The notes under the pieces: generated by a model
Databases searched by the model: none
Told to the model about the DNA's origin: nothing
What the model saw: only the letters and a program-made list of their open reading frames with translations
Made by a program: the position numbers and the translations under genes
DNA from: an archaeon
Lineage (GTDB): Archaea > Nanobdellota > Nanobdellia > Woesearchaeales > UBA9642
Length of the DNA stretch: 64,000 bases
Assembly (NCBI GenBank): GCA_020057295.1
Contig: JAGVGF010000006.1
Span: forward strand, 124,001 to 188,000
Direction: 5' to 3'
Shown here: positions 390-19,656 of the stretch, in pieces
Position numbering within the stretch: the first letter of the stretch is position 1
Layout: the number at the start of each line of letters is the position of its first letter

Positions 390-1364
390 ATGGCAAGCGT
401 AACATTGGATAAAGTTGTACAGAATGTTGGAACATTTAAAGGAGATATAAAGGAACAACGAAGAGATTATGAGAGAGCAAAACAAGGCGTCGAATTATTA
501 GATAACGACCTAAGTAAAGAAAAACTTGAAGATGCATTAAGAAGAGCTTCTGAGTATAGTGAATTTAACATACCAACTGCGCCAGTAGATACAGAGATAG
601 TTCGTGGAGATGTTTCATTTAATGTAAGATCTGAAGCAACAACTAAAAGACCACAATACAAAACAGCTGTTACAGGAATAGAAAATTACATTAATGGCAC
701 ACATTTTTTAGTTAATAATGGACATACAATTACAGGAGTTGTTAAAGAAGGAAATAAATGGTATGTAGCAACAGACACTTTACTCGAACATTGTGAAATT
801 ATGCTAGCAAGCATAATGATTCCGGATATTAAACAAACAATAACATACATTCTAAGCGGAGATTTGTCTGCCGAACCAACACCAAAAACAATTGATTTGG
901 GAAGTCAAAAGTCTTCACGTGCATTAAATGCAGAGAATTTTGCAAATTATGCAAGAAGAGATAGATTGAGACAAGATCTAAGTAAATTTGTTGAATCATA
1001 CGAGCTAGCACTATCTCAAGAAGAAAAAACAGGAGAAGGTATTGTACAAGTAAATACTAGAGCAGGTTACAAAGAAGAGAAAATTAAGAGCAAAGGTGCA
1101 AATTGGGCATATGTAGCAAAGACTCTGATAAGAATTAAAGAAAAAGATGATGAAGGAGAATTAAACATGCTAGCTGATTCGGAAACAAGTCTTGCATCAA
1201 AGAAGCGCGAATTACCATTCTACGACTTGAGAACAAGAGATGTAAGAGGAAGCGAAAAAGTATATGTTAGTCTACAAAGTGTATACGATAGAATACAAGA
1301 TTTAAAGGAACAGGAAGTAATCAAATCAAGTAGAAGTAAAATCAAGGCACAAGAAATCGTATAA
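390..1364 (+). CDS. Conserved-looking hypothetical protein, 324 aa
   Basis: I do not recognise this protein. The ATG at 390 follows a good Shine-Dalgarno sequence (GAGGGAT) seven bases upstream, and a TATA-like AATAAATATAAA lies farther up. The product is soluble and highly charged: the first 60 residues are rich in Lys/Glu/Asp and probably helical, there is no signal peptide or membrane segment, and the C-terminal 30 residues are again charged and helical (QDLKEQEVIKSSRSK). No cysteine motif or nucleotide-binding loop is visible. It stands alone between an Lrp-like regulator and a convergent winged-helix gene, with a T-rich terminator behind it. Real gene: high confidence. Function: unknown. 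Confidence 0.75.
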   Translation: MASVTLDKVVQNVGTFKGDIKEQRRDYERAKQGVELLDNDLSKEKLEDALRRASEYSEFNIPTAPVDTEIVRGDVSFNVRSEATTKRPQYKTAVTGIENYINGTHFLVNNGHTITGVVKEGNKWYVATDTLLEHCEIMLASIMIPDIKQTITYILSGDLSAEPTPKTIDLGSQKSSRALNAENFANYARRDRLRQDLSKFVESYELALSQEEKTGEGIVQVNTRAGYKEEKIKSKGANWAYVAKTLIRIKEKDDEGELNMLADSETSLASKKRELPFYDLRTRDVRGSEKVYVSLQSVYDRIQDLKEQEVIKSSRSKIKAQEIV

Positions 1365-16598: not shown

Positions 16599-17966
16599 TT
16601 ACAAGTCGTCAGTTGTTAATACAGATAATCTTTCTGACTTAACACGTGTATCCATTCCTACTAAGAATTGAATATTAGCTCTTTCTGCAGCAGCTAACAA
16701 ATCTTTATCAACTATGTCATCTAATACTACTGCATATATTCCGCCGTTTAGGCTTTTTATTGTGCTAATCAATTCTGATACAGGTATTTTTCCTAAGATT
16801 GTTAACTTGTCATCAAGCATAAATGCTGCTCGTGTTCCAATCAAGTCTTCCATCATGTCGCCAAAGCTTTCAATCTCGTTTTGATTTGCCTGTCTTCTTA
16901 CTGCAGATGGTTGTACAGGTGCAGGTCTTGGAGGCATTGGAGCACTTGTTGGTGCTGACATTGGCCTTGGTGGTTGACTCGGACCATTTTGTGGTGGTCT
17001 TGGAGGCATTCCTTGCTGTGGTGGCCTTTGTGTTGGCATCATTGGCTTACTAGATTTCTTAACGCTGAATGTGTCTCCAGTTAAGTGATCTGGTTTTGCC
17101 TGATCTAATGCATTTTCTGGTGCATCACTTTTAACACCAATTTCTAGTTTAACTTGTTCAGCAGCAATTCTTGCTCTTAAACATTTATGAATTTCTTTCT
17201 TAGTTAATTCTTCTAACTCTTTACCATCTGGTGCTCTTGTTACGAAGTCTATGTCAGTAACCGATAATAATTCTTGTACTATCAAATTACCTCCTCTGTC
17301 TCCATCTACGAATACTGTAACAGTTTTCTGTTTACATAATTCTACGATGGTTGCAGGGATACTTGTTCCGTTGATTGCTATCGCATTCTTGAAACCGTTC
17401 TTTAACAAGTTAATAACATCTGCTCTTCCTTCTACCACAATTATTTCTGCTGCATCTGCTACTTCTGGACCTGCTGGTAATCTATCTCTACCGTATTCCG
17501 TTATTTCCATAACTCGAACTGATGCTGCTACTTCTTCTGCAATTTCTTGCGAGTTAGGAAGCACATTGTCTGTTAATGATCTTAACAATTCCTTTGCTCT
17601 CTCGATTACGAATTGTCTCTTGCTGATTCTGACATCTTCAATACTTTCAACACGTACTTTTGCATTACATGGACCTATTCTCTGAATTATTTCTAAAGCT
17701 GCTCCTATGATTGCTGTCTCTGCTTTATCCATTGAACTTGGTAGAACTATCTCTCCTTTGGTCTTACCGCCTCTAGTATCTAAATTTACTTCTATACGAC
17801 CAATTTTTCCGCTTCTTTGAAGCTCTCTTAACTCTAAATCTGCTCCAAGCAGACCTTCTGTCTGTCCAAATATTGCTCCTATAACATCTGGTTTATCTAC
17901 AACACCTTCAATTAAGATGGATGTATGTACGATATATTTTGAACTTACTGGATTAATTTTTCCCAT
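16599..17966 (-). CDS. dnaG: Archaeal DnaG-like primase / exosome subunit
   Basis: The 455-aa product is archaeal DnaG, an exosome-associated Toprim protein that also has primase activity in some species. The order is an N-terminal archaeal domain (SSKYIVHTSILIEGVVDKPD...), a central Toprim with IIVVEGRADVINLL (about 173-186) and the DGD pair in VFVDGDRGG (about 218), and a C-terminal exosome-binding domain. Between Toprim and C-terminus is an unusual Pro/Met-rich linker (about 305-355, many PPRP repeats) that is likely disordered. A RNA-like region without long ORFs lies directly upstream. Confidence 0.95.
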   Translation of the reverse strand: MGKINPVSSKYIVHTSILIEGVVDKPDVIGAIFGQTEGLLGADLELRELQRSGKIGRIEVNLDTRGGKTKGEIVLPSSMDKAETAIIGAALEIIQRIGPCNAKVRVESIEDVRISKRQFVIERAKELLRSLTDNVLPNSQEIAEEVAASVRVMEITEYGRDRLPAGPEVADAAEIIVVEGRADVINLLKNGFKNAIAINGTSIPATIVELCKQKTVTVFVDGDRGGNLIVQELLSVTDIDFVTRAPDGKELEELTKKEIHKCLRARIAAEQVKLEIGVKSDAPENALDQAKPDHLTGDTFSVKKSSKPMMPTQRPPQQGMPPRPPQNGPSQPPRPMSAPTSAPMPPRPAPVQPSAVRRQANQNEIESFGDMMEDLIGTRAAFMLDDKLTILGKIPVSELISTIKSLNGGIYAVVLDDIVDKDLLAAAERANIQFLVGMDTRVKSERLSVLTTDDL

Positions 17967-17999
17967 TTAAATCACTCTCATATTATTACTAATCATTTA

Positions 18000-18280
18000 T
18001 TATCCAGTCAAAAACTTTTAGAACAAGTTGTAATACTATCCAGAGCTTTAATAAATTCTACTACTTTGAAATGCTCTGATGTCGCCCATTTTTTTGCCAT
18101 AAATGAATCGAATGAGTATGAAACTTGTTCAATTATTGACTGATCACAAATCCTTATAAAAAAGATTTGTTGCCCGCACCACTAACTCCCATGTTCAAAG
18201 CTTGGCTTTCGCCGTTTGCTCCCACAGGTACTCTCTGTGTCGGGCTGAACGTATAAGCTTGATTAGGGCCTATACCTAAT
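18000..18280 (-). ncRNA. Candidate structured non-coding RNA 1 (about 280 nt)
   Basis: No long ORF lies here, and the part from 18170 to 18290 is about half G+C, well above the surroundings. The minus-strand reading folds well. Hairpin ATTAGG/CCTAAT (18262-18280). A multi-branch domain closed by CGGGC/GCCCG (18241-18245 with 18172-18176) contains CACAG/CTGTG (18223-18239) and a GGC-GAAA-GCC GNRA tetraloop (18204-18213). Then hairpin ACAAATC/GATTTGT (18146-18170) and a long arm pairing 18115-18142 with 18005-18036. A minus-strand TATA box TTTAAATA (18301-18308) sits 25 bp before the predicted 5' end. I tested 5S rRNA, SRP, RNase P, tRNA and 16S signatures by eye and none fits, so identity is unknown. 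Confidence 0.55.
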
Positions 18281-18310
18281 CGCAGGAAAGGAAAGGCCAT
18301 ATTTAAATGT

Positions 18311-18338
18311 TGTGGAAAACGAGATTTTGTTTTCCACA
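18311..18338. other. Perfect 10-bp inverted repeat (hairpin) between the two RNA candidates
   Basis: TGTGGAAAAC and GTTTTCCACA flank an 8-nt loop. The hairpin sits immediately upstream of the TATA box of RNA candidate 1 and downstream of RNA candidate 2 on the minus strand. It could end or protect the RNA 2 transcript, or be an operator for RNA 1. Confidence 0.5.
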
Positions 18339-18424
18339 GCTCAGAAATCTTGAGATTTTTGATGTTGTAGAAGTTTAGGATATTATTTTATCTAGGAGAA
18401 TTTCTAGATTTTAAAATTTGAGAA

Positions 18425-18530
18425 TAGTATGTTGAGTCCAGTTCAGAGAGATAGTGCGATGGGTTGGTTTTAAAGGTATGCGGTTAACATACGTGGGCAA
18501 AATCGTGATACTGAACCTGGACCCCAACAA
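18425..18530 (-). ncRNA. Candidate structured non-coding RNA 2 (about 100 nt)
   Basis: The ends pair over about 16 bp: GTTGAGTCCAGTTCAG (18431-18446) with CTGAACCTGGACCCCAAC, leaving one bulge and one mismatch. Inside are GCGAT/ATCGT and a terminal hairpin GTATG/CATAC. G+C is clearly above the flanks and no ORF is present. On the minus strand a TATA box CTTATAAATA (about 18551-18560) lies about 26 bp upstream of the expected 5' end GTTGGGGTCC, which argues for minus-strand transcription. On the plus strand the stem would be followed closely by ACA, as in H/ACA guides, but the stem is too long for that class. Identity unknown. Confidence 0.5.
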
Positions 18531-18668
18531 TAGTATAATCTAGAATGAACTTATTTATAAGTCTTATTAAGGATGCTTCTGTATTACTTCTACCCAATCT
18601 ATTAATAAATGTCTTCCTATGAAATACTATTAGGTTGTTAAAAACCTAAGCATATTGAGGTGATTTAG

Positions 18669-18812
18669 ATGAGAACGAGAGAACAAATTACTGAAGAACT
18701 TTTAAGGAAAGAAGAGCGAGTCAGGGCATGGGAACAAAAAAACATAGATCATTATGTTTATGATGAACCAAGATTAGAATATTTAGACATGTCTGATGAG
18801 GTGAGAATATGA
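18669..18812 (+). CDS. Small ORF, 47 aa, charged
   Basis: ATG at 18669 is preceded by a strong Shine-Dalgarno (GAGGTGA) nine bases upstream, and a TATA-like stretch lies farther up. The product is very charged (8 Arg, 10 Glu), with an N-terminal helix EQITEELLRKEERVRAWEQK and a Tyr/Asp-rich C-terminus. Its stop codon overlaps the start of the next small ORF (ATGA), a sign of translational coupling. No family recognised; the ribosome site and coupling are the evidence that it is real. Confidence 0.5.
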   Translation: MRTREQITEELLRKEERVRAWEQKNIDHYVYDEPRLEYLDMSDEVRI

Positions 18813-18880
18813 TTTCACTAGAAGACTTATATTATGTGCCTATAAAAGATGATGATAGCTATTACATCACACAAGATTAA
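18809..18880 (+). CDS. Tiny ORF, 23 aa, acidic, coupled to the preceding one
   Basis: ATG overlaps the previous stop (ATGA), and GAGGTGAGA lies just upstream inside the previous gene, giving its own ribosome site. The 23-residue product (MISLEDLYYVPIKDDDSYYI then TQD) is acidic and Tyr-rich. It ends at the convergent trmI stop, overlapping by four bases. It may be a peptide partner of the 47-aa protein; function unknown. Confidence 0.4.
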   Translation: MISLEDLYYVPIKDDDSYYITQD

Positions 18881-19656
18881 TTAATTTTTCTTACTATTGT
18901 TATGAATCCTGAATGTATATTTGAGAGTGATCTCGGTCTAACAATTTGACCTTCAATTTTCCAGTCTCTTTCGATTATCTCTATAGATTTTATGTGTGAA
19001 TATTCGTGCGTTTTCACAAGTTCATTAAGAAAGGATTGTGCTTGAGTAACTTGGGGACAGTAGACTGCTATTAATCCCCCGATTTTTAATATCTTATCTA
19101 CTGAATGTATGGCTCTCCAAGGCTCAGGTAAATCTAACAAAACAACATCAACATTTTCTACAGGCAATACATCATATGCATCAGCTTTCTGTACAATAAC
19201 ATTTTTTAAATTAAAATACTCAACATTTTTTCGTACTTGTTCAAGATTCTTTTCTTCAACATCAAAGGTATATACTTCTTTAGCATATTGTGCTAAAAAA
19301 CATGCGCTTCCACCAGAACCTGCTCCCATATCTACAACAACACTATCTTTGTTTATGCCAGTTTCTGCAAGTATAAATCCTAAATCTTTTAGTGGAATTG
19401 TTTGAGCAAGTTTTCTTATGCCTTTGTATGAGTCCATAAAATTTGCATCAAATATGAAGAATTCTTTACCTTTACTAGATTTTATTACGGTTTCTTTTTT
19501 CTGTAAATCTTCCGTACTTATTACTCCTTCTGATGAATGGAAATCTTTAGAAATATCCTCAATAAAATATGTTTTACCTTCAGAAATAACTACAGATTTT
19601 TGTAGCTCATCAATATATTCTCTATGCTCTTTACGTACTAGAACTTTCTTAATCAT
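18877..19656 (-). CDS. trmI: tRNA (adenine-N1-)-methyltransferase, TrmI family
   Basis: This 259-aa protein has the TrmI plan: a small N-terminal beta domain and a class I SAM-methyltransferase domain with motif I VVDMGAGSGGSACFLA (about 108-123), motif II YTFDVEEKNLEQVRKN, motif IV VVLLDLPEPWRAI (the catalytic DLPEPW), and a C-terminal IVRPRSLSNIHSGFI. Archaeal TrmI makes m1A at tRNA positions 57/58. The start ATG at 19656 is used rather than the in-frame TTG two codons upstream. Convergent with the small ORFs at 18669-18880. Confidence 0.92.
   Translation of the reverse strand: MIKKVLVRKEHREYIDELQKSVVISEGKTYFIEDISKDFHSSEGVISTEDLQKKETVIKSSKGKEFFIFDANFMDSYKGIRKLAQTIPLKDLGFILAETGINKDSVVVDMGAGSGGSACFLAQYAKEVYTFDVEEKNLEQVRKNVEYFNLKNVIVQKADAYDVLPVENVDVVLLDLPEPWRAIHSVDKILKIGGLIAVYCPQVTQAQSFLNELVKTHEYSHIKSIEIIERDWKIEGQIVRPRSLSNIHSGFITIVRKIN

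Follow-up and report, generated by a model that had tools for sequence, protein, structure and literature searches.

The minus strand of the window (the whole 64,000-nt stretch of archaeal DNA that was analysed) encodes, upstream of dnaG, an RNA that is real, strongly conserved and folded. It belongs to no Rfam family and is previously undescribed; no earlier report of it was found in the non-subscription, non-preprint literature searched. Because it is conserved, associated with a single gene and proximal to a promoter, it is best read as a cis-acting regulator. It would form a structured leader of the dnaG mRNA, probably autoregulatory through the mechanism proposed below. In other archaea, DnaG is a subunit of the exosome.

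The locus and its RNA

The preliminary description had singled out 18000-18280 as a zone free of long ORFs and holding a structured RNA, and both points stand. No long ORF of its own was found there, and minus-strand folding of 17980-18330 beats 100 of 100 shuffles (z -3.4), the 118-nt RNA alone folding better than 200 of 200 on the same strand (z -2.9). The start codon of dnaG is at 17966, and the RNA lies on the same (minus) strand and runs in the same direction (Table 1). The high G+C ascribed to the whole zone is confined to approximately 18160-18280 (0.48-0.55), 17980-18139 being A+T-rich (0.20-0.37). The TATA box is also found, just beyond the end of the zone, and transcription would start near 18275-18280. 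As for the 28-bp imperfect arm, the inverted repeat is present (GAACAAGTT at 18122-18130, AACTTGTTCT at 18020-18029), but it underlies the arms of a separate element, the conserved H1 hairpin that precedes dnaG.

Table 1. Elements of the RNA and dnaG region in the window
Feature	Positions	Strand	Basis
TATA box ATTTAAATA of the RNA/dnaG transcript	18300..18308	-	Sequence; TATA-like sites phased to the RNA 5' end in 113 loci
P1, reduced 8-bp 5' hairpin GUAUAGGC/GCUUAUAC	18251..18275	-	Compensatory changes in three genus members
RNA core: P2 (GCCCG.CAC/GUG..CGGGC), internal loop GAGAGUA/GUUA, P3, internal loops, P4, 3' NNCA	18168..18246	-	Comparative
Hairpin directly 3' of the core (ACAAAUC..GAUUUGU)	18146..18170	-	Sequence, three-genome alignment
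H1 hairpin, arms GAACAAGUU (18122-18130) and AACUUGUUCU (18020-18029), UCA-rich 5' loop part	18020..18130	-	Arm motifs in relatives
Ribosome-binding region of dnaG, weak GAGUGAU	17967..17979	-	Sequence; SD-like in relatives
dnaG, archaeal DnaG with TOPRIM	16599..17966	-	NF003108, 484 bits (cut-off 300); Pfam Toprim

The first DNA comparison, made within the genus (four genomes including the window's own), yielded two relatives that are 84% identical to the window within 18161-18317; in each, the match lies upstream of dnaG. Aligned with one another, the three genus sequences share a TATA box, a core that hardly varies and a 5' hairpin in which changes compensate each other. The two congeners have hairpins of other sequence in place of the one at 18146-18170.

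Two further structures were observed on the plus strand: 18309-18339 holds a near-perfect hairpin (GUUGUGGAAAAC...GUUUUCCACAG), and 18432-18525 is a structured stretch of greater length (GUCCAGUUCAG...CUGAACCUGGAC). The region 18290-18570, which holds both, folds at z -3.6, and the genus DNA matches end at 18317. A short divergent ORF of 47 codons (MRTREQITEELLRKEERVRAWEQ...) occupies 18669-18812 of the plus strand, and a similar one (MTRQQYQELLELKEERISNWEQ...) was seen by eye at the matching place in a congener (L004, about 1205-1336, minus strand).

No Rfam covariance model matched anywhere in the whole window at gathering scores. At E<=10 over 17900-18900 the only match was an unrelated snoU43 (17 bits, at 18760), and at E<=1 none fell over the RNA in 19 relatives, the sole match being a tRNA elsewhere in one locus. 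A tRNA search gave no tRNA. The same genome has its RNase P RNA (RF00373, 125 bits, C1:216184), SRP RNA (RF01857, 136 bits, C2:11868) and 5S rRNA (RF00001, 76 bits, C2:103646) elsewhere, with no match to any of these models at the RNA. Since ordinary copies exist elsewhere, the RNA is none of the three.

The preliminary description had found that the RNA fitted neither 5S, SRP, RNase P nor tRNA, and the searches agree. It had also proposed a new archaeal RNA unless RNase P or SRP RNA was missing from the genome, and both are present at normal scores; its interpretation is supported. An Rfam search and covariation had been named as tests able to refute it: the RNA matched no family, and very strong covariation was found. 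The observation was real and under-stated, and is partly confirmed as a whole, the G+C of the entire zone and the multi-branch fold being wrong.

Conserved structure

In the comparative structure the core is an unbranched rod, P2-P3-P4. Within P2, GCCCG pairs with CGGGC, then CAC pairs with GUG, and CAC/GUG changes to UAC/GUA. The GCCCG/CGGGC domain previously proposed is therefore correct in its closing helix (18241-18245 with 18172-18176) and incorrect in its multi-branch form, for which the comparative data substitute a rod with internal loops. The letters GAGAGUA, UGA and GUUAG of these loops are nearly invariant, and the 3' boundary of the core is sharp (CGGGCNNCA). A minus-strand GNRA tetraloop, also proposed earlier, exists in the window (GAAA at 18204-18213) but is absent as a family feature, most relatives having a shorter loop.

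Mutual information computed on 91 cores, with no helices given beforehand, placed ten helix pairs among its top 13 column pairs; of the three remaining, two touch a mostly-gap column. Alignment A6 has double changes in 15 of 20 core pairs, with 93.3% of cells pairing and a covariation score of 0.326, against 0.150+-0.006 when shuffled and at most 0.083 when slid. In 85 further sequences (60 from genomes of the order, 20 from other orders and five others), which were aligned by the model and so lean towards it, 16 of 20 pairs have double changes and the score is 0.366, against 0.157.

A full P1 domain lies 5' of the core in 41 of the 91 sequences, with AAUGGGUCCUU...GAGACACUCUU inside a variable stem. 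In these 41 relatives, double changes affect 14 of 17 pairs (score 0.529, against 0.239+-0.014). P1 is optional, since many relatives have this larger domain and others none; the genus of the window has a short hairpin only.

Two other structural proposals were set aside. A GUUCA/UGAAC pseudoknot had been suggested by three genus members, and its 5' half is unconserved in the wider alignment. The multi-branch and minimum-energy folds differ in part from the comparative structure, which was preferred, even though in silico it is less stable in the window than the minimum-energy fold (-28.5 vs -36.8 kcal/mol).

Association with dnaG

With the core located by covariance model and dnaG by tblastn, dnaG lies 3' of the core, in the same orientation, in 90 of 91, 60 of 60 and 20 of 20 genomes in three sets, 170 of 171 in total. 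The RNA thus precedes one gene, in one orientation, across lineages; the exceptions are G201, G202 and an extra copy in G101. The distance from the core end to the ATG is 103-568 nt (medians 175-255 nt across the three sets). A further pattern scan, of named contigs that overlap with these genome sets, finds dnaG next in 114 of 118 loci; the other four are cut off within 280 nt. The genes upstream of the RNA vary among relatives. Topoisomerase VI B, a KH-domain protein (KRR1/PNO1-like) and RIO1 kinase recur near the RNA or dnaG (L048, L051, L052, L057; 9003-16529 of the window).

In G201 and G202 (genus g122) the RNA is detached from dnaG and stands elsewhere behind a TATA of its own; the leader of dnaG retains the hairpins that normally lie downstream of the core, together with a separate TATA. 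Two copies are present in G101: one is divergent and linked to dnaG, and the other, more typical, stands alone with a convergent gene behind it. In one genome bin, G104, two dnaG genes (G104:C18 and G104:C22) each stand behind their own RNA copy of different sequence; they may represent paralogues or a mixture of strains. In locus L299 of G201, just before the core, the core start is partly duplicated in tandem (CAUAAACAGCCCGUCACGAGAGUACC twice).

In three loci from other orders of the class (L277, L280 and L281) a small TOPRIM ORF stands just before dnaG; it is PRK04017-like and distantly RNase M5-like, below curated cut-offs. A small TOPRIM ORF was also recognised by eye before dnaG in L275. 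In L275 and L281, both from other orders, the start of this ORF adjoins the core or overlaps it; in L281, a GUG inside the 3' strand of the core is the sole usual start codon before the TOPRIM motif.

Promoter, spacer and H1 hairpin signals

TATA-like sites are phased to the 5' end of the RNA. In loci without P1 they gather in a single 5-nt bin, 26-30 nt upstream of the core (68 matches, 67 loci); in loci with P1 they peak 101-115 nt upstream of it (73 matches, 46 loci). This phasing to P1-less and P1-bearing 5' ends implies that the transcription start should fall at the first helix of the RNA. In the spacer between RNA and dnaG, TATA-like sites are depleted (61 observed vs 146 in mononucleotide shuffles), with no clear peak near the ATG. 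Promoter phasing and the scarcity of internal promoters are consistent with co-transcription of the RNA and dnaG, as judged from sequence.

On the RNA strand the spacer is enriched in YCAY, with 512 observed against 229+-14 expected, and on the antisense strand it has 207 against 296 (all expectations from mononucleotide shuffles only; a control stretch gives a ratio of 1.11). KH-type RNA-binding domains typically recognise YCAY, and one such domain is present in Rrp4 of the exosome cap. H1-type arms (AGAACAAG...CUUGUUCU) occur as strict motifs in the right order in the spacer of 83 of 170 leaders, shuffles giving 0.05 on average, and some genomes have a second spacer hairpin of similar design. 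An SD-like sequence precedes the dnaG start codon in 162 of 170 leaders and is weak in the window.

No conserved U-run terminator follows the core: five of six U occur within 30 nt in 29 of 113 loci and in the next 30 nt in 24 of 113. No clear set of H1-type repeats that would form a wider regulon emerged outside dnaG leaders in about 1.49 Mb of fetched loci, from a list made up largely of the same palindromic arms read in antisense, with entries not individually checked.

A second putative small RNA was noted approximately 150-800 nt upstream of the dnaG RNA (L161, L162, L166, L084, L085, L211 and others). It comprises a TATA box, ...AACACCUCAAAACCACCUCUUUUCCUCAG, a hairpin and GGGGUUUUU, and its repeated ACCUC could pair with Shine-Dalgarno sequences. 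It was found within 420 nt in 42 of 170 loci and occurs in tandem copies in L179, L194, L218, L222, L248 and L265; in one family, 18 of 30 genomes have a single copy. A strict mutual exclusion of P1 and the CACCUC element upstream was weighed and rejected, both being found in 7 of 170 loci.

Taxonomic range

A first covariance model, built from three sequences, matched four of six genomes of the family at E<=0.001 and 280 of 352 of the order at E<=1, nearly always as a single copy. A second, built from 91 sequences, matched at E<=0.01 in 179 of the 378 genomes sampled for the class and in 231 of the 371 sampled for the phylum; among the matches listed for these samples, all belong to the same order or class. 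Named matches in the genome collection (80 titles of 118 stretches) carry the names Candidatus Woesearchaeota, Nanoarchaeota/Nanoarchaeia or DPANN, or belong to unnamed archaea.

The RNA was not matched in 72 of the 352 order genomes. Twelve of 13 tested also gave no dnaG match, which fits an assembly gap or joint loss; in one order genome (G148), dnaG is present and the core undetectable. Among 11 genomes of other orders with dnaG and no RNA match, an unfiltered search recovered cores at 32-36 bits in L275 and L281. It reached only 12.5 bits in L274, also of another order, and similar hairpins were seen in L277 and L279, from other orders, by eye only.

Proposed function of the RNA

The preferred interpretation, held with slightly better than even confidence, is that the RNA is the 5' leader of the dnaG mRNA, its core and H1 being bound by protein in a negative feedback on dnaG. 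Conserved dnaG linkage, a phased promoter and a conserved second hairpin, none of them visible to the preliminary description, point to an mRNA leader more than to an isolated RNA, and the computed basis further includes the conserved structure with its compensatory changes, the scarce internal promoters and the strand-specific YCAY enrichment. TATA-driven transcription would start right at the first helix, and the RNA would fold as a compact rod, with the optional P1 followed by P2-P3-P4 and their nearly invariant loops. The transcript would then continue through a UCA-rich linker and H1 into dnaG. Core and H1 may bind a protein that sets dnaG expression; the likeliest binder, by guess, would be DnaG itself or its exosome cap (Rrp4/Csl4/DnaG). 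Such binding could give negative feedback on the RNA-degrading machine, by analogy with the action of bacterial RNase E on its rne leader.

Archaeal DnaG is an RNA-binding protein proposed to bring stable RNA to the exosome (PMC4227792), and bacterial RNase E feeds back on its own rne leader (PMC10989929). The E. coli rne leader resembles the proposed dnaG leader in being long and structured, in preceding the gene of an RNA-degradation enzyme and in the proposed feedback logic. The two are not known to be related in sequence or structure; the archaeal gene encodes an exosome subunit, and the feedback is here only a proposal.

A tentative alternative, clearly less probable than a feedback leader, is that the core is a stable, trans-acting housekeeping RNA which shares the dnaG promoter and is cut or terminated after the core, its adjacency to dnaG reflecting co-expression with a protein partner such as DnaG/exosome. 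Single copies in most genomes, nearly invariant unpaired loops and the sharp 3' boundary would suit such a role, as do the stand-alone copies with TATA in G201, G202 and G101 and the separate dnaG TATA of the first two. Cores that persist away from dnaG argue against a purely cis role and for one in trans, which these copies keep open. However, linkage to dnaG in 170 of 171 genomes is tighter than this account needs, the core lacks a conserved U-run behind it, and the spacer bears no sign of a separate dnaG promoter. The RNA shares with archaeal RNase P, SRP and 5S RNAs the property of being a near-universal, single-copy structured RNA in the order, and differs from them in that all three are present separately in the genome.

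It is rather unlikely, although conceivable, that both roles are combined. The core would then be an ancient, class-wide partner of the DnaG-containing exosome, the leader setting the level of dnaG and a released form acting in trans, with the copies in G201/G202 and G101 representing the liberated form.

A little more doubtful is a small-molecule aptamer (riboswitch) controlling translation of dnaG, or of the small TOPRIM ORF and dnaG in other orders. Like the metabolite riboswitches of Rfam, the RNA is compact, sits in a leader and has conserved internal loops, and in L275 and L281 the core touches a start codon. Unlike them, it has no known ligand and no Rfam match and accompanies one gene only (dnaG, or small TOPRIM plus dnaG), with no metabolic or transport genes; it is usually present in one copy per genome, and no alternative fold or expression platform was identified.

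A divergent known RNA (RNase P, SRP, 5S, guide RNA or tRNA-like) is very improbable: the first three are refuted here by their separate copies, the searches described above found neither an Rfam family nor a tRNA over the RNA, and the weak likeness of the loop AGUACC..GGGAG to 5S loop E, noted by eye, is unsupported by any search. The RNA resembles archaeal H/ACA guide RNAs in having NNCA after a stem, with ACA in some family members, but ACA is unconserved across the 91 sequences (UUCA, AUCA and others), no guide pocket or kink-turn was identified, and Rfam gives no match.

Conclusions

Structured leaders are considered rare among archaea, many of whose mRNAs are leaderless. The RNA upstream of dnaG extends across a major DPANN group and shows the degree of conservation of a housekeeping RNA, and the gene to which it is linked encodes an RNA-binding exosome subunit of unclear cellular role. 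It constitutes a new RNA family for annotation in hundreds of genomes, a testable candidate RNA ligand for DnaG, and a handle on the control of RNA decay in minimal archaea.
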